Of a DNA stretch of 64,000 nt, positions 7,285 through 61,839 are shown piece after piece. The stretch is from the NCBI GenBank assembly GCA_029204225.1, contig CM055096.1:62352957-62416956 (forward strand). The letters run 5' to 3'. Each line of letters starts with the position of its first letter. Position 1 is the first letter of the stretch. The notes beneath the pieces were generated by a model, which was not told where the DNA came from, searched no databases, and saw nothing but the letters and a program-made list of their open reading frames with translations. Source of the DNA: Diphasiastrum complanatum. Its lineage: Eukaryota; Streptophyta; Lycopodiopsida; Lycopodiales; Lycopodiaceae. Made by a program: the position numbers and the translations under genes.

Positions 7285-7514
7285 GTAAGTAGGAATGCAC
7301 AGCATTTGGCAAAATGTCTTCCTGATATTATGGGTTTTCTTTATTTTCACTCTGCTTACAGCATTTGCATGATTATTCTCGTTCCTTTAAAGGATGCATT
7401 CTCAGACAAGCCTGCATTCTGTATTCGCAATTGTAAGTCAGTGCTGCTTCAATCAAGCTTTGGATGTAGCAGCTACTAACCCTCAACTATCTATACTTGG
7501 TGATTGGAAGCCAG

Positions 7515-7727
7515 ATCAAGCTTCTCTTTGTGGCAGAACGTAAGATATGTGATCAAATATTTCAGCAGCTTGACCCCTACAGAGAGCGCTGCTTTGCTGA
7601 AGTTGCCGAAAGTGGGTTCATTGTGCTTCTAAGTTCAGGAGACGCGATTGCAAAGAGCAAGAAATCTCCAGAGAAGTTGTTTGTGCTTCTTGACATGTAT
7701 GAGACTATGTGTGATCTTCTGCCTGAG
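7515..7727 (+). CDS. EXO70A: EXO70A exon
   Basis: Seventy-one complete codons between CCAG and GTACTT. It encodes IKLLFVAERKICDQIFQQLD, CFAEVAESG, LLSSGDAIAKSKKSPEKLFV and LLDMYETMCDLLPE. The donor opens a 46.9-kb intron, yet frame (phase 0) and protein similarity resume exactly at 54605 (IEIIFSGDP...GIRETASGL). Confidence 0.92.
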
Positions 7728-9168
7728 GTACTTGATTACTAACTTGGCTTATCTGGAAGTTTGGAAGATATGGTCTTTGCTAAATGATGGCTTTGTCTTG
7801 CATAAGATCATGATATTGTGTATCTATATTTTGCATAAGATCATTATATTGTGTATCTATATTTTAAAACTAGAATGGCTCGAAACCTTAGAAATGTTGC
7901 AAATAGCAATGACTCGTTCTGAATGTTGTAGGTGACGTCAATTTCTTTACTTTTTAAATTTTTTCAAATTTGCTCCATATGTACTGAATGACATATGCTA
8001 GAATGAAACCCCCGAACAGACATATATGCTGTAACTACTTGAATGTCCTGTAACTAATAGTTGCAATTTTGTGCAACTTAACTTCAACAAAACGTGAGAC
8101 GATGGGCTGGTTGCTATTGAACACCAACATACTACACTAACCCGCCCTGCAATGTTTTGTCCTGCTGATCATATTAACTAGCAACTTGCAAAAAGTTCCA
8201 ATTTTAGAAAATTTGAATCTTTTGTTGATTGATTGCACTTGTAGAGATTTAAATGTTTTGGTGATCAATTGTACGATTAGATCATAGGTCTTGATTCCCA
8301 ACATGTTTCCAGGGTTTGTTGCAATTTCTTCTCAAAATTGTAGGTGTATTTTTTGTCTTTAATTTTTTTTTATAGATCTTTGGGTTTATTTGCTTATCTT
8401 CACAACTATTTAGCAATTTATTTTATAATTTCAAGCAATTCAGTTCACTTGATTTTTAGAAGCATGATTCAAATCTCTAAAATATTAATAAGTTGATTTG
8501 ATTTGAATCAACTACGACTACGAGCTTTGCAGTCCACAAAATTATGCTTTAGCAAAACCACTTGAAATTTCTTAGGTAGGTTTCTTCAGGCGAAGACTTG
8601 GTGCTTGTCAAAAGCTTGTCTTGATCAATTGTTGTGCTCTTCCTAAGTCTAGGTGTGATATAAGAAACAAGCGGATTTCTTATTGATGGTAAGCCTCAAT
8701 ACTTGCAGACATGTCTCATCGACATTCGCTAGTGAAAATGAGTTTATTAGCATCTCATAGTCCATGTTGTTGTGCGTAGGGCACTTCATCACACTGATTC
8801 AGCATAGTTGACCAACATTGCTTCTAGGTCAAAGACTTATTTCTCACTTTATTTGGAAAGATGATCTTCTACCAATATCGTAGCATGTAGAGGAAGCATG
8901 AACATGGTTTTATAGAGAACATATGTGAATTTTTCTTTTTCCAAAGAAATAATTGCTACAACCTAGTAGCTATATCTTCATTTGCCAACATGGAAGGAAA
9001 CGCAAGTTTGTAAGACCCACAATTTTCTCAGTATCTTCTAGCATGCTTTTATGATTCATGTGGGTAAAAGATTATTTTTCTATTTTCTCCTAGATTAACA
9101 TTATGGTCTTCATGTAGTTGTTCTTTCCGATTCCTATGATGGATTGCATGAAGTTTCTACGAAGAAAA
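7728..9168 (+). other. start of the 46.9-kb intron, no recognisable feature
   Basis: AT-rich sequence with stops in all frames. I see no protein motif, LTR pair or RNA gene. A 31-bp near-duplicate (ATTGTGTATCTATATTTT-type) occurs at about 7800-7865. Confidence 0.55.
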
Positions 9169-54065: not shown

Positions 54066-54604
54066 ACGTGACATTTTTCCTAGGTTTAATGGATACTTTC
54101 CCAGCACTACCTAGTTTCCAATATAAACGATTTCTGAAGTGGGGTGTAATATTTTGTGAAGGTATTCAACTTGCCAAATTTTATAGAGAGCCTCAATATA
54201 TATTGAATAAAGAATCCAATTTATTTAGTGACAATGCTTACTGGCACACAAAGCTTCTTGATCAACTTTCATTTTTTAGAGTCGCGAGCATGCTCTATCT
54301 TTCCAGAATCCATCCATACGTAACCCCTCCATTGTAAGTGGTTGATGTTTTGGAAGGAAAAAATGACTAAATTGATCCTACACCATATGGTTCACATTGT
54401 GTTATTTAACTTCTATTTGATTTGTTTCACGTCCATAATCTGTCATGGAATCAATTAAGATAGAAATTTCGATGTCCAATTCTGTTTCAAGCCATTTAAT
54501 TCTCTTTAGTAGAAACGCATCTCATAGGAGATTGAATGTCAAGTGTCAATGTAAACACAATCGATAACCCTAATACTTTGCTTTTGGTTGTGGATATTTT
54601 ACAG
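54066..54604 (+). other. end of the giant intron, nothing recognised
   Basis: An 89-codon ORF at 54068-54337 has no family motif. The branch-point and acceptor region of the 54605 exon lies in the last 60 bases. Confidence 0.45.
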
Positions 54605-54810
54605 ATCGAGATAATATTTTCGGGCGATCCATCAGCAGGCATTCGTGAAACAGCTTCAGGGTTGACAAAGAGGCTTTCCCAGACAGCACAAGAAACATTC
54701 AACGACTTTTTAGAGGCTGTTGAGAAGGATGCCACTAAGACACCCGTCCTAGATGGCACAGTTCATCCCCTCACTAGTTATGTCATCAACTATGTCAAGT
54801 TCCTTTTTGA
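54605..54810 (+). CDS. EXO70A: EXO70A exon
   Basis: The acceptor ACAG is followed by ATC GAG. The exon encodes IEIIFSGDPSAGIRETASGL, TKRLSQTAQETFNDFLEAVE, KDATKTPVLDGTVHPLTSYV and INYVKFLF, the hallmark central segment of EXO70. The donor is GTAAGT at 54811. It ends two bases into the Asp codon completed at 54945. It lies just after the giant intron. Confidence 0.94.
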
Positions 54811-54944
54811 GTAAGTTTAACCCTGCCATGTGCTTTCATCCTTGAACAGTAATTTAATGTGGTGGGCATCCTCCATCTTGTCTTTGTTTTTTGGACATAT
54901 TGAGAAAAGGTATAGATCAGGATGATACCATTGGTGTTACACAG

Positions 54945-55145
54945 CTATCAGGCAACTGTCAAACAACTATTCGAGGAGGATGAAAATGTAGATAAGTCAA
55001 GCTCACAGTTGGCAACAGCAACAAGGAAGATATTGCAGGTGCTTCAAAACAATCTCGATGGCAAATCGAAACAATACAAAGATCCTGCTTTGACACAGCT
55101 TTTTCTTATGAATAACATGCACTATATCGTGCGATCTGTTCGGCG
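54945..55145 (+). CDS. EXO70A: EXO70A exon
   Basis: Follows a 134-bp intron (acceptor CACAG). It encodes YQATVKQLFEEDENVDKSSS, ATRKILQVLQNNLDGKSKQY and KDPALTQLFLMNNMHYIVRS, then VRR. The donor is GTAATG. The phase fits the next exon, so the two join as VRRSEAKDLLGDDW. Confidence 0.94.
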
Positions 55146-55248
55146 GTAATGACCTTTTTGTCCTATTTTTCAAAGCTTTGAGCTGACTTTTTCCCTTTGT
55201 TTCTCCTGCTATTGGTAAGGTGCCACCATAACACAGTGCTTATTGCAG

Positions 55249-55820: not shown

Positions 55821-55957
55821 GTTAGGCCTTGGAAAGCCTTCGGAGTTATGAGAAGTGATAGAATACTGTAGTGGCTTGTTCAGTTCTTGTTGAATCTTTT
55901 TTGTGAGTTGAGCTTTGAATCTGTTCATGAAAAAACATTTGCTGTGATTGAAAACAG

Positions 55958-56104
55958 ATTCAAAAATTTCAATCTCCTATTTGAAGAATTGCACCAAAAG
56001 CAGACTCAATGGACCATTCCTGATAGCGAGTTACGTGAGGCAGTTCGATTGGCAATCGCAGAAGTTCTCTTGCCAGCTTATCGCAACTTTTTAAGGCGTT
56101 ACAG
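55958..56104 (+). CDS. EXO70A: EXO70A exon
   Basis: The acceptor is AAACAG and the donor GTACTT. It encodes FKNFNLLFEELHQKQTQWTI, PDSELREAVRLAIAEVLLPA and YRNFLRRY. A 6.6-kb intron carrying a TRIM and a Copia element separates it from the terminal exon. Confidence 0.93.
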
Positions 56105-56284
56105 GTACTTGCTTGCTTTTATTTTAAGAATTGCAGATTGTCAGCAGTGTTTGGAACAGGTCCTGAACGGCACTCCATACGGTACTTGCACTTCCTTTTA
56201 TATTTGTTTTTCATTTTGTTTTGTATAGGTAAAGAGTCACTGTTTGATATTATTTTATATAGTTCACCTTCTGTAAAACTACAC

Positions 56285-56428
56285 TGTTAGAAATCCATAA
56301 ATCATAATATGGATGGACAGACTAGGATTCGAACCCAAGACCTCCCTCATACGGGATGAGATGCTCTACCACTGAGCTATCCGCCCTGTTTGATAGTTCT
56401 CTCTAGCGTGTGGATTGTTATTCCAACA
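56285..56428 (-). repeat. TRIM 3' LTR
   Basis: 144 bp, TGTTAG...CCAACA; carries the tRNA-like segment 56314-56386. Confidence 0.93.
56314..56386 (-). other. tRNA-like cloverleaf in TRIM 3' LTR
   Basis: 73 nt on the minus strand. The acceptor GGGCGGA pairs with TCTGTCC in all seven positions (two G-U). The D arm is GCTC/GAGC, with A box TAGCTCAGTGG (56369-56379). The anticodon stem TCTCA/TGAGG encloses loop TCCCGTA. The T arm TTGGG/CCTAG encloses TTCGAAT, with B box GGTTCGAATCC (56325-56335). The A-to-B spacing of 44 matches real tRNAs. The conserved U33 is C, so decoding is unlikely. The anticodon position reads CCG. Confidence 0.85.
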
Positions 56429-56529
56429 CGCCCCCTCAAGCCACACTTGGTTGGGGTCTTAGCTGTCACCTGCCCCACAACTTGGGCCACCTAACCATGG
56501 CTTTGACACCATGAACTGTTAGGTCTAAC

Positions 56530-56544
56530 TTGGCTCTGATACCA
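56530..56544 (-). other. TRIM primer-binding site
   Basis: TGGTATCAGAGCCAA on the minus strand, complementary to the 3' end of plant initiator tRNA-Met and directly beside the LTR. A second, degenerate copy (TGGCTTTGACACCATG on +) lies at about 56498-56513. Confidence 0.9.
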
Positions 56545-56688
56545 TGTTAGAAATCCATAAATCATAATATGGATGGACAGACTAGGATTCGAACCCAAGA
56601 CCTCCCTCATACCGGATGGGATGCTCTACCACTGAGCTATCCGCCCTGTTTGATAGTTCTCTCTAGAGTGTGGATTGATATTCCAACA
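56545..56688 (-). repeat. TRIM 5' LTR
   Basis: 144 bp, abuts the primer-binding site; carries the tRNA-like segment 56574-56646. Confidence 0.93.
56574..56646 (-). other. tRNA-like cloverleaf in TRIM 5' LTR
   Basis: Same structure, 260 bases away. A box 56629-56639, B box 56585-56595, both unchanged. The anticodon loop is TCCGGTA (again C33) and one anticodon-stem pair is lost. No run of four T occurs on the minus strand from here to the far end of the element. The first such run, at 56275-56278, lies just outside it. Confidence 0.85.
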
Positions 56689-56696
56689 TACACTAA

Positions 56697-56783
56697 TGTA
56701 AGAAAGCAAGAGTCAAGTCACCAAGATCTAGCTATCAATCAATCTCCACAAGAAACAAGAGAGAAGAGGCTGGGCGCCCAGCT

Positions 56784-56830
<47 letters not shown>

Positions 56831-57091
56831 ACAACAAGAGCAATGCTTAGCCAAACTGAAAAATGTGACACAATAAGCCAATATGTACTCTACCTACTTA
56901 CTGATTGTAGGGCACCCCCAAAAGTCAACATAGGACCCATGAGTCAGTACATGACCAAAATTGGGTCCAATTAAACTTAAGACAAACTTAAGATGGCCTA
57001 AATAACTAAATACACATGGTTACACAAATCTCGACCTTTTGGGTCAAAGTAACCTATGGATTAACTTCAGCATAGTCATTTATTTCTAACA
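56697..57091 (-). repeat. L 3' LTR
   Basis: 395 bp. Its right 200 bases (TAGGGCAC..CCAAAAGTCAACATAGG ... TTTATTTCTAACA) match 61345-61564 closely; the right copy has a short extra segment near 61378-61400. Confidence 0.85.
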
Positions 57092-57124
57092 ACCTCCTTC
57101 AATGCAGAAAAACTGAAATCTTCA

Positions 57125-60100
57125 CTATGTAATAAAACCACCACGTGGTATTAAATTTAAAGCTTTGCATAAAGCTTCAAATCTGACTCTAGGCAACGCC
57201 TTAGTGAAAAGGTCCGAAATATTATCCTCTGTGGGACAATACTCAAGTAAAATGTCGCCATCATGAAGTCTCTCCCGAACAAAGTGATAATGGATCTCGA
57301 TGTGCTTCGTCCTCGCATGAAAAACAGGATTTCGTGCAATGGCAATAGCACTCTGACTATCACTCAAGATAAGAGTGGCTGAGGGCTCGCCAATCTTCAT
57401 GTCAACAAGTAGTCTTCTCAGCCATAAACACTCCGTTGTGGCTGAAAATATCGCTCTATATTCTGCCTCACTAGAAGAAGTAGCAACAGTGGGCTGCTTT
57501 GTACTTGACCAAGAAATTGCAGAATCTCCATAGAAAAAGCAATGTCCACTTGTAGAGCGGCTAGTGTCTTGATCTCCAACCCAATCCGAGTCACTAAAAC
57601 CAACCAAACATGCATCATCACAAGCAGGAAAAACCAGTCCATGACTTCTTGTTCCTTGAGGATGTCGAAAGATCCTCTTCAACACTTTCCAATGTGATGT
57701 CATCGGGGCATGCATGAATTGACTCATGAGTGAGAATGGTTCACCATCACCTTGACTACTCAATTTTAGGCCTGTCTCCATAGGTGTAGCAACCGGCTTG
57801 CAATCTTCCATCTTCACTTCAAAATCTGCCCAATGTAGTGTTCTTGAGAGATGAAAATTCCAGCCCCTTCTTGTACAAATTCAAGACCAAGATAAAAGTG
57901 CAATAGGCCTAAATCTGAGGTTTCAAAAACCATACCAAGATCAAGTATTACGGCATCAATCTGCTGCTCATTACTTCCCGTAATAATAATATCATCAACA
58001 TAAAGCAAAATAATGACGATATAATCTGAAGTATGTGACATAAAGAGTAGATTCCGTAGGACTGTTAGTAAACCCACGATCACAAAAATAGGCATGTATC
58101 TTTTGATGCACATCCTCGGGGCTTGCTTCAGTCCATAAAGTGCCTTCTTGAGAAGATAAACTTTATCTTCTTGGCCTTCAACCAAAAAACCATCAGGTTG
58201 TTGAAGGTACACTTCCTCATTGAGATCACCATTGAGGAATGCTGTCTTTATGTCAAATTGCCGCAAACGCCAACCAAAATGGGCAACCAAAGAGGTTACT
58301 ACTCTCACGGTAGTCATCCAAGCAGTAGGAGAAAAAGTCTCCTCATAATCAATCCCCTTTTGCTGAGCATACCAGCAATAGAAGATGGTACCAAATCTAG
58401 AAAAACTTCAACATTCACACTATGTGGGCTGTCCCCCTTCAAGATGTGAGTTGGGGCCACCATTAATGAATTCTTTTCATCAAAATGCACATCACGACTA
58501 ACAATAATCTTGTTAGTGCTAAAATTGAACAGCCTATAGCCTTTGCTTCACTACTATAGCCAACAAAAATGCATGTAACTCCTTTACCCTCAAGCTTTGT
58601 ACGAAGTTTATCCGGAACAAAAGCATAGGCCGTACAACCAAAAATGCGAAAGTGAGAGATTGAAGGCTTCTTCCAATACCAAACTTCATAAGGAATTAGT
58701 ACTTTCAATGCTTTAGTAGGACAACGATTGCTTATGTATGCTGCCGTTATAACCGCTTCAGCCCAAGACTTGTGAGGCAGCCCCTTTCCTTTGAGCATGC
58801 AACGGGCCATCTCCATAAGTGTGCGATTCTTTCGCTTGGCAACACCATTTTGATAAGGTGTATAGGGAGTTGTCATTTGATGTAGAATTCCCTTCTCTCG
58901 AAGAAATGCATCGAACGTATTCTTAATGTATTCTCCTCGATCGGTGTGTAGGGTCTTCAAAGAATGCCCAAACTGATTTTCCACCATTGCTAGAAAATCT
59001 TTGAAATGTTGAAAAACTTCCGATTTAGCCTTCATAGGATAGATCCATGTAAAACGGGAAAAGTCATCAATAAAAGTCACAAAATAGATGCACTTTCCAA
59101 TGGATTCGGTCCTCATTGGACCACAAACATCACTATGAACCAAATCAAATTTATCCGTATGCACCCCTCGCATACATGCCCTTTCGGCTGCTCAATAGTA
59201 GGAAAATCTTCTACCATATTAAATGTCTTCAGCTTCTTCAAACTTGCAAAGATGAGATGTCCAAACCTTGCGTGCCACAATTCAACCAACTCCAATGATT
59301 GTGATGTAGAAGCAACAAGACATATAGAGGGAATTCGTCGCTCATAGGTATCCATAATGAATAAGCCAGCATGCATTGTTCCCGAAACAATAATCAAGAG
59401 AGATCTTTTAGGATCCTTGACAAGACACTTATCTTCTTTGAACTCAACAACTAGTCCTTGCTTCAACATAGTTGAAACCGAAAGAAGATTCTTCTTGAGT
59501 CCAGAACATAAAGCACATTCTTAATGTACTTTTCTTCACCATTAGGCAGAATGATGGCTAGAATTCCAATTCCATGAATAGAATAAGATGCATTATCCGC
59601 ACATTGTACCTTGCACTTCCATGAATGCTTCTTTGCGAGAAGTCATATAATGAGTAGCACCACTATCAATCACCCATTCAATGGGCTGAAAATCAGCAAC
59701 TTGCAAAACAGAACCTGAATTTCTCGTAGATGTAGAAGTACTAGTAGAAGCAATATTAGACACAAAAGCATAGTCTTGGTTGAAGAGATCACCACTAGCT
59801 TCAAGCTCTTGCTCCAAAGTAACAAGTGAAGCACTAGTATCAATTCCTTTACTCTCCTCTTTCGCAAGCTTGTTCTTACAATCCTTGATGAAGTGCCCAT
59901 ACTTCTTGCAATAATGGCACTTCCCTTTCTTTTTTTGAGTGTTGACATCTTGACCTCCAATGGGCTTTTGCTCATCCTTGGAAGGAGGCTTCCCCTTTCC
60001 TTTTGACTCGCCTTTGCTTTTGCCTTTCGTGAAGAAAGCTTGATCTTGTTGAGTGTCACTCGCAAAATTTTGCCTCGTTTGCTCCTCTTGAAGAAGCAGC

Positions 60101-60754
60101 CCAACAAGTTCATCAAAGGAGAGTTGATGTCCTCTAAGAGAGATACTCAAAGATGAAGCAAATGGAAGATAAGAGGAAGGTAATGAGCTAAGAGTAATGG
60201 AAACAAATTGAACATCCTCAATTATCTCATCGATATTGAGAAGCTCCTCACGAAGATCCTTGATCTTCATTAAGTGATTGGTCACTTGATCCCCTTCTTA
60301 CATTTTTAACAAAGAAAGCTGATTTCTAAGGTACACCACTCTTGTTGGATTTTTGACTCTATACATAGTATAAAGTGTATCCCACGCACTTTTCACTGCA
60401 AGACCTAATATGAGGTAAGATAGATCTTTTCACAACAAGAGCAACCATAGAATGTGCTTGTGCATCCCTTCTATCCCACTTCTTTTGTTCTTCCGAAGAT
60501 GTAGAAGATGATGATGATGATGATCCACGAGGTGTAGGAGGTGCCAAAGACGGAGGCCTTTTCTCATCACCAATGAGCAAATCCCACAGCCCTTTCGCTA
60601 TGAGAAAATTCTTCATCATGTAACTCCACAAGGAGTAGTTTGTGCCATCCAACTGATCTTCACTAAACAAAGAACCGATAGCTTCCGATTCTTTAGCCAT
60701 TACCTCCAACAAAATTTTAGCTTGTAGTAGATAGAAAAGAGAGCCTTTCCACAA
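57125..60754 (-). pseudogene. L Copia gag-pol, broken
   Basis: Gag: EDQLDGTNYSLWSYMMKNFL near 60680-60620, then a Ser run (60480-60540) and a frame break at about 60360. The frame 60285-59593 has the CCHC knuckle CHYCKKYGHFIKDC and protease WVIDSGATHYMTS. The pre-integrase (LWHARFGHLIFASL, 59469-59113) and integrase (FDLVHSDVCGPM, HTDRGEY, PYQNGVAKRKNRTLM; 59173-58463) follow. A gap loses the linker and the start of RT. RT has LLYVDDIIITGSN at about 57990-57960 (frame 58317-57814). RNase H has FSDSDWVGDQDTSRSTS, SSSEAEYRA and HARTKHIEIHYHFVRE (57817-57125). At least four frame breaks and one internal deletion. Confidence 0.88.
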
Positions 60755-61344
60755 CCAAATCTACTCAAAAAATTTGCAGCAAACAAAGAGCTGAAAGTAG
60801 GAGCACAAGATGTCTTTCAATCTGCAACCAAAGTTCCCAAAAGATAATGGATAGATGGATGTCTTTCTGCACAAAATAACCAGCTCCTTGAAAATTAGGT
60901 TAGCTTCGATTGAAGCCTACACCGAAACCCAAATAAGAAGCCAAATAGTGTGATCAACACACACTCCAATAGGGCTGTTGAAAGCACCCTATTGCTTGCT
61001 GAGAATCTGCAAATTTCTAGCTACAACTTTGACCTAACCCTGAATAGGGTTTGCTGAATTTTGGGCGCCCTCCTACACAAATGCAAACCTGAAAACAAAA
61101 AGAGCAAGATAAGGAGACACCACAACCAAAAATCAGTAACAGGTTTTTGGGTGCCCTCCTCCAAACCAAACTTGCTGAAAACTGGTTGTATAAAAATCAG
61201 ATTTGAGATTCTGATAGATTCTGATTTTTGGGTGCCACAAATTGCTCCTCCAACATCTTTGATGGGCGCCCTCCTTCAACCTGAAAAGAGACAAAAAAGC
61301 TGATCCAAACTCCACTTGGAAAGATAAGCAGTATGCTGAAATTT

Positions 61345-61564
61345 ACTAATTGTAGGGCACACCCAAAAGTCAACATAGGGCCCCTAAACCAAATTAGACC
61401 CCTAAGGGACCCATGAGTCAGTACATGACCAAAATTGGGTCCAACTGAACTTAAGACAACTTAAGATGGCCTAAATAACTAAATACACATGGTTACACAA
61501 ATCTCGACCTTTTGGGTCAAAGTAACCTATGGATTAACTTCAGCATAGTCATTTATTTCTAACA
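61345..61564 (-). repeat. L 5' LTR, truncated
   Basis: Homologous to the right part of 56697-57091 and ends with the same TTTCTAACA. The target duplication ACTAA follows. Confidence 0.85.
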
Positions 61565-61839
61565 ACTAATGCATAGTTCCCCCATGTCATAGAAATCTGT
61601 TCTGAAATGAAACGAGTTTTGGAACGTGGGTAGCTTCTTTGTCTTTTTTCAAACGTTTCTTTTTTTGGTTTTTTATAAGAATTCTAGACTGATTTTAATA
61701 TGGGTGTGCATGGGGCAGCCTTCAAGCGGTTCAGTTCACAGAAAACATTTTTATGTCAAACGGCACGGATAGGGCCTAGGAAGATAACGAGGCAAATTGG
61801 CACAGACATAAGCATTTACAGATAGACCTAGGTTTTCAG

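Follow-up and report, generated by a model that had tools for sequence, protein, structure and literature searches.

Fused insertions in this genome suggest that a short TRIM retrotransposon, whose LTRs each carry a tRNA-like segment, is copied together with larger Copia-type elements having a common primer site. The reading we favor, with a probability of roughly 60%, is that the RNA of this Helenus-type TRIM is made by Pol III and shares particles with several LTR retrotransposons, and that template switching at the common primer site gives rise to composite insertions. The element was found in the 64,000-nt stretch of DNA analyzed here (the window), and its family was followed through the genome (1.745 Gb, 5176 contigs).

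A tRNA-bearing TRIM and its dispersed family

The TRIM lies on the minus strand at 56285–56688 of the window, a 404-bp LTR-interior-LTR element read from the sequence and belonging to a dispersed family. Its 5′ LTR (56545–56688, minus) and 3′ LTR (56285–56428, minus) are 144 bp each, have the usual TG...CA termini (TGTT...AACA on the minus strand) and differ at 4/144 sites (K 0.028). Between them is an interior of 116 bp (56429–56544, minus), of insufficient length for encoding retrotransposon proteins, with a primer-binding site (PBS) TGGTATCAGAGCCA at 56531–56544 (minus), presumably complementary to initiator tRNA-Met as the primer, and a polypurine tract at 56429–56437 (minus), which reads GAGGGGGCG in the window copy. 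The interior also holds a second, degenerate copy of the PBS region at 56491–56513 (minus), whose score was equaled by 0/2000 shuffles. Target-site duplications TACAC stand at 56280–56284 and 56689–56693. The initial annotation had called the element a TRIM from its 144-bp LTRs, 116-bp interior, purine tract and exact TACAC duplication, all of which are confirmed in the sequence, as are the PBS and the 5-bp duplications. The assignment also agrees with the definition in the available text of Gao 2016 (PMC4717578): the element is shorter than 1500 bp, is present in two or more complete copies whose duplications differ, and belongs to a family without retrotransposon proteins.

The TRIM touches a larger element in the window, here named Copia-C (56697–61564, minus), which has its own LTR type, no tRNA call in the LTR, and interrupted gag-integrase-RT frames. 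The 5′ LTR of this copy is deleted at its inner end, and its target-site duplication (TTAGT on the minus strand; 56692–56696 and 61565–61569) overlaps that of the TRIM by 2 bp. Genome searches with Copia-C used queries that ended at 57093 and 61566, 2 bp beyond the true ends. Outside the PBS, the TRIM interior has no similarity to Copia-C. The wider setting is an EXO70A-like gene on the plus strand, with exon-bearing frames at 7470–7739 (Exo70_C profile positions 11–87), 54536–54811 (86–156), 54916–55146 (156–240) and 55872–56105 (289–349); their best match among solved structures is an EXO70A1-type chain, which we take to be the Arabidopsis protein. An intron of about 47 kb containing Copia and Gypsy elements separates the first two exons, and the TRIM lies antisense to the gene, about 180 bp beyond the last exon seen; a motif scan of the window found no final exon.

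Each LTR contains a 73-nt tRNA-like segment, recognized both by ARAGORN and by the Rfam tRNA model RF00005: 56574–56646 (minus) in the 5′ LTR, at 46.6 bits and E 8.8e-7, and 56314–56386 (minus) in the 3′ LTR, at 47.3 bits and E 5.6e-7 (E-values for the whole window; gathering score 29). ARAGORN called no tRNA elsewhere in the window and gave these two inconsistent anticodons, and an Rfam search of 56280–56693 at E up to 1 returned tRNA alone and no 5S rRNA. The acceptor stem, read from the sequence, has seven pairs, two of them G-U. The A box TAGCTCAGTGG (56629–56639 in the 5′ LTR, 56369–56379 in the 3′ LTR, both minus) and the B box GGTTCGAATCC (56585–56595 and 56325–56335, both minus) begin at LTR positions 50 and 94, an offset of 44 nt; a strict A+B-box pattern occurs at just two places in the window, one per TRIM LTR. 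The complete segment that the initial annotation had described in each LTR, with its seven acceptor pairs and correctly spaced boxes, is thus upheld, and the covariance scoring it had proposed returns a tRNA above the gathering score in both LTRs. Taken by itself, the tRNA-like part has an ordinary folding energy (z -1.05 for 56314–56386, -0.54 for 56574–56646), so the tRNA signal is one of sequence and structure combined. A distant DNA search for the isotype of the nearest tRNA gave scattered prokaryotic and phage matches. Upstream of the tRNA-like part, positions -6 to -4 (56650–56652, minus) read CAA, a start motif of plant tRNA genes; since CAA is found within 10 nt of 36–45% of plant tRNA genes according to the available text of PMC11700998, its presence in the TRIM is mild support.

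The family is young and dispersed. The LTR query gave 1283 first-look candidates, 40 of which were scored and were every one at least 97% identical, and the interior query, which is not biased toward an intact tRNA part, gave 1114 candidates with 40 scored. From these we fetched 38 stretches, covering the 40 LTR-query matches, and 30 interior-query loci, 68 loci altogether. Many have the LTR-interior-LTR layout, while some are solo LTRs, including three with duplications (GTTTC, TAAAT and GGGTC at L016, L028 and L045), or tandem arrays (e.g. L034, L046, L080, L083). Among the 27 simple elements, meaning those of the 38 loci with a single, normally spaced LTR pair, an exact 5-bp duplication flanks 20 and TG...CA ends are present in 26; 20 have the exact PBS at its expected position, 22 have an identical degenerate PBS copy and 14 have a run of 7 G in the polypurine tract. 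A cruder duplication test was positive at 12/30 interior-sampled loci; it is based on the outermost matches, so composites and arrays are misread. LTR-LTR divergence has a median K of 0.021 over 27 pairs, none of them identical, which at plant substitution rates of 1.3e-8 and 7e-9 corresponds to about 0.8–1.5 My.

The LTR sample comprised 109 distinct copies (116 rows before repeats were removed; shorter alignments were left out), of which 106 were called as a tRNA by ARAGORN. A chance tRNA match and a one-off insertion are thereby ruled out, and the genome search suggested by the initial annotation instead shows the tRNA part to be a feature of the family. Such calls would also inflate tRNA counts in genome annotation. 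The A box is exact in 94/109 copies, the B box in 82/109 and both in 74/109, with at least one box altered in 35/109, and the upstream CAA is present in 107/109. A search pattern for LTRs in which the flanks are no more than 30 nt apart had one exact match in the genome; it retains the first 13 nt of the tRNA part, and the short LTR is therefore a deletion, not a tRNA-free ancestor. LTR copies with deletions extending into the tRNA part were also seen at L046, L112, L117 and L092. Exact LTR patterns had no match in collections of genome contigs and viral contigs, neither of them plant-based.

The anticodon loops of the two window LTRs read TCCGGTA and TCCCGTA, with C at position 33. The initial annotation held that C33 argues against decoding, and the family agrees, with C33 in 107/109 LTR copies; as judged from the sequence, the tRNA-like part does not have a decoding role. 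That the copies are functional tRNA genes dispersed by a retrotransposon is very improbable, given C33, the inconsistent anticodon calls and the lack of a terminator close behind most copies, even though ARAGORN calls most sampled copies, 82 of them as Thr(ggt) and 15 as Pro(cgg).

Fused insertions with Copia-type elements

Three composites were traced to both ends. Two have the order TRIM LTR, Copia-C interior, Copia-C LTR, TRIM interior, TRIM LTR (LTR_T-Int_C-LTR_C-Int_T-LTR_T): L093 on C2 (5335 bp, duplication GATAC, outer TRIM LTRs with 0/144 differences) and L105 on C6 (5902 bp, duplication ATATA). The third, L099+L104 on C4 (5796 bp, duplication GACTG), has the opposite order, LTR_C-Int_T-LTR_T-Int_C-LTR_C, with outer Copia-C LTRs 97.3% identical. 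In their Copia interiors, domains of gag, integrase and reverse transcriptase are spread over separate frames, and within the composites tRNA calls are confined to the TRIM LTRs. All three have an internal LTR, two cores, a flanking duplication and similar outer LTRs, the marks of template-switch complex elements in the available text of PMC1950507. The joints sit at the LTR/PBS border, in a shared stretch CATGGTATCAGAGC.

Both kinds of joint recur. The exact junction of a Copia-C LTR with the TRIM interior occurs at 14 places genome-wide, as does the exact junction of a TRIM LTR with the Copia-C PBS, and the reversed-pattern control gave 0 in each case. Two of the former 14 are L093 and L105; the other 12 were fetched, and 10 continue into a full TRIM interior and TRIM LTR, the remaining two (L112 and L117) into a deleted form. 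The pairs L112/L117 and L111/L118 are identical, so there are fewer distinct fusion events than places. The variant junctions at L098, L099 and L100 stand outside this exact count. For the TRIM-LTR/Copia-C-PBS junction, sequence was read at L099, at L100, at the C803 copy of the L100 event and on C20 (in L114). At L064, an interior-query match, a Copia-C LTR abuts the TRIM primer site; farther along, and in inverted order, a TRIM LTR end abuts the primer site and leader of the Copia.

Some joined copies depart from this pattern. L098 and L099, about 200 kb apart on C4, share a variant end of the Copia LTR and do not differ in their TRIM LTRs, perhaps through segmental duplication. L100 (C22) and L063 (C803) are a TRIM-Copia hybrid in which an inverted segment splits the TRIM LTR at position 105/107, resembling what an autointegration product might look like. 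At L101 and L103 the TRIM LTR start or interior is joined within the Copia-C interior, away from the usual junctions, and at L044/L103 the TRIM primer site is joined to the middle of Copia-C.

Copia-C is the commonest fusion partner in the sample, and not the only one. Border joins among the 68 loci with TRIM similarity involve Copia-C at 7 loci (5 places, of which L098 and L099 may be one duplicated event) and three other elements, X, Y and Z, at one locus each, which rules out Copia-C as sole partner. At least two of these others, Copia X and element Y, show both junctions. At L094 (C5:67160500-67167500) the LTR of Copia X, ending TTTTTCACA, is joined to the TRIM interior, and a TRIM LTR is joined to another primer-site leader. 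L096 (C8) has both junction types with the third element, Y, and L095 (C8) has a TRIM-LTR/PBS junction with the fourth, Z. The foreign leaders at these TRIM junctions all start TGGTATCAGAGC.

This spread of partners bears on a rather unlikely alternative, namely that one particular element is the true mobilizer and the others are fellow passengers. That element need not be Copia-C, and Copia X is one candidate: the L094 leader opens into a single 1322-aa frame containing domains of gag, integrase and RT, and the two copies of a 456-nt stretch repeated on both sides are 99.8% identical, while the window copy of Copia-C has interrupted frames and the TRIM interior resembles it only at the PBS. 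The tally nonetheless favors Copia-C over X, Y and Z, and fusion with several partners argues against one dedicated mobilizer. With several partners, the simplest reading is that the TRIM is linked to its mobilizers by having a primer site and a particle in common with them, and not by its LTRs.

Transcription, template switching and alternatives

In the pathway we propose, the A and B boxes of the 5′ LTR would recruit TFIIIC and Pol III, transcription would begin close to the CAA that precedes the tRNA-like part, and LTR positions 1–42 would serve as U3. With no T4 in most copies, the RNA would continue through the 3′ LTR into host DNA, and would carry, besides a host tail, an R of about 100 nt at each end. 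This RNA would then enter particles of LTR retrotransposons with the same primer site, those of Copia-C most often in the sample and those of at least two others too. With both RNAs in one particle, as the template-switch model requires, DNA could transfer between them at the shared stretch: minus-strand DNA begun on the TRIM RNA would cross the PBS onto the 5′ end of the Copia RNA, make the usual jump to the Copia 3′ end and copy the Copia interior, before plus-strand strong-stop DNA of the TRIM completed it at the Copia PBS. A start on the Copia RNA would give the opposite order. The two products are those seen among the composites and would integrate with a 5-bp duplication, and the LTR/PBS border of the joints would correspond to the site of the second strand transfer.

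As far as sequence can tell, the pathway most likely begins with transcription of the TRIM by Pol III, a step favored because the promoter is complete, TATAAA and AATAAA are lacking, and Cassandra offers a precedent. Absence of T4, which the initial annotation had also brought forward, carries little weight. The 362-nt sense span from the start of the tRNA-like part in the 5′ LTR through the element indeed has none, the first downstream T4 lying in host DNA at 56275–56278 (minus, the sense strand of the TRIM), and just 5/109 LTR copies have a T4 anywhere from the tRNA start to the LTR end. A span of this kind is nevertheless equally free of T4 in 47.5% of dinucleotide shuffles and 27.1% of plain shuffles, and T4-free stretches are common in the window (125/588 when T-matched, 372/2546 overall). 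The predicted RNA (56275–56646, minus) folds much more strongly than its shuffles (z -7.3), a property that is not strand-specific (antisense -5.5 versus -6.3), yet -5 is reached by 1/80 background windows. Its preferred fold, at -140.9 kcal/mol against -114.7 for two cloverleafs, counts against the proposed pathway. In that best fold the two tRNA-like copies pair together, which recalls the Cassandra super-hairpin outlined in the available text of PMC7215508.

A rather unlikely account makes the tRNA-like part a passenger, with Pol II transcription that begins at a cryptic LTR promoter or outside the element, and with boxes that persist only through the youth of the family. In its favor, the boxes do not change detectably more slowly than the rest of the LTR: outside CpG/CHG, substitutions number 19/1952 cells in the boxes and 138/11819 elsewhere, and 1871/5000 random site sets are equally slow among these young copies. 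Box conservation as evidence of selection is therefore unsupported, and the comparison of box decay that the initial annotation had set for itself gives it no backing. Decay without a sign of selection is expected for dead copies, however, so promoter use is neither supported nor refuted by it. The complete composites (5.3–5.9 kb) would also be long for Pol III if ever copied as RNA. On the other side, a motif scan found TATAAA, TATAWA and AATAAA all absent from the window TRIM, and the full tRNA fold, both boxes and the CAA are present, the boxes being as in other Helenus families in the available text of PMC10886601. The earlier proposal that the element may be copied from a Pol III transcript thus keeps the boxes and the CAA, gains little from the T4 argument, draws nothing from the rate of box change, and stays an inference.

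The composites could instead have arisen at the DNA level, from adjacent TRIM and Copia insertions that later recombined, implying nothing about a shared particle. The window itself offers such a neighborhood, with the TRIM adjoining Copia-C and the two duplications overlapping. We consider this improbable, as each of the three composites is flanked by a 5-bp duplication of its own and the outer LTRs of one are identical, and these are the criteria against recombination between neighbors in the available text of PMC1950507. Both junction types also recur at many places and with other elements, and they are located at the LTR/PBS border.

Template switching in shared particles therefore remains our preferred reading of the fused insertions. 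We extend it tentatively, at somewhat less than even odds: Pol III-made Helenus RNA may be a promiscuous hitch-hiker in the particles of several Copia-type families with its primer site, swapping ends there and repeatedly building 5–6 kb composites, some of which insert as units with tRNA-bearing LTRs flanking a Copia coding region. If this is true, a Pol III-type LTR is passed on to protein-coding elements.

Comparison with known systems

The initial annotation knew of no named tRNA-carrying equivalent, a claim that falls with the publication of Helenus, named by Kojima in 2024 (PMC10886601; the TRIMp3 group) for TRIMs with tRNA-derived sequence and preserved boxes A and B in their LTRs. As far as the available text goes, Helenus elements have a PBS and a polypurine tract, their 5-bp duplications are found in fungi and plants, their Pol III promoters are unproven, and fungal members are tied to Copia by the PBS and a similar interior. 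The present family shares the short TRIM layout of less than 1000 bp, the PBS, the polypurine tract, the 5-bp duplication, conserved TRGCY...YGG (box A) and GGTTC (box B) in both LTRs and a tRNA thought to be non-functional. Compared with Helenus by its published description, the element is a further Helenus family, not a separate class. It differs from Selaginella moellendorffii, the sole plant species given in that text, in size (LTR 144 bp and interior 116 bp in a 1.74-Gb genome, versus 120 and 85 bp), and its link to Copia consists of fused insertions instead of the PBS and similar interior of the fungal members. A survey of TRIMs in 48 plant genomes (Gao 2016, PMC4717578) does not use the word tRNA in the main text available, and our literature searches returned no further relevant paper on Helenus retrotransposons and tRNA or on TRIMp3. 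Neither a TRIM-Copia composite of this sort nor a seed-plant Helenus was found in the literature searched, largely listings and abstracts, against which the fused TRIM-Copia insertions at the shared LTR/primer-site border are new. If the host is a seed plant, as we tentatively suppose, the family is probably the first Helenus known from that group.

Cassandra, a plant TRIM with 5S rRNA in its LTRs, had been cited as precedent by the initial annotation, in agreement with the available texts of PMC10853983 and PMC7215508. There, as here, a Pol III gene lies in the LTR, the PBS is of the Met type and tandem arrays occur; the differences are 5S rRNA there and tRNA here, and LTR terminators described there where most copies here are without T4. 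The account of Helenus gives, in its available text, no indication of an autonomous family that moves Cassandra (PMC10886601). A young plant family with recent TRIM-Copia composites offers a system in which questions about the TRIM mobilizer and about the Pol III promoter can be tested, and the composites suggest a link between TRIM and mobilizer by shared primer site rather than by shared LTRs. They add a recent fossil record of reverse transcription common to TRIM and Copia-type elements.

Like tRNA-derived SINEs, which have a tRNA-derived Pol III promoter and read through into host DNA, the element has a tRNA-derived promoter and probable read-through; unlike them, it has LTRs, a PBS, a polypurine tract and 5-bp duplications. 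The closest parallel to the composites is in grasses, where Sabot and Schulman 2007 (PMC1950507) attribute complex elements to template switching during reverse transcription, and not to later recombination, when duplications flank them and their outer LTRs match. In the available text of that paper the grass elements have the same internal LTR, two cores, flanking duplication and matching outer LTRs, but are described within single families, whereas the present composites unite a TRIM with Copia elements of unlike LTRs, in both orders.
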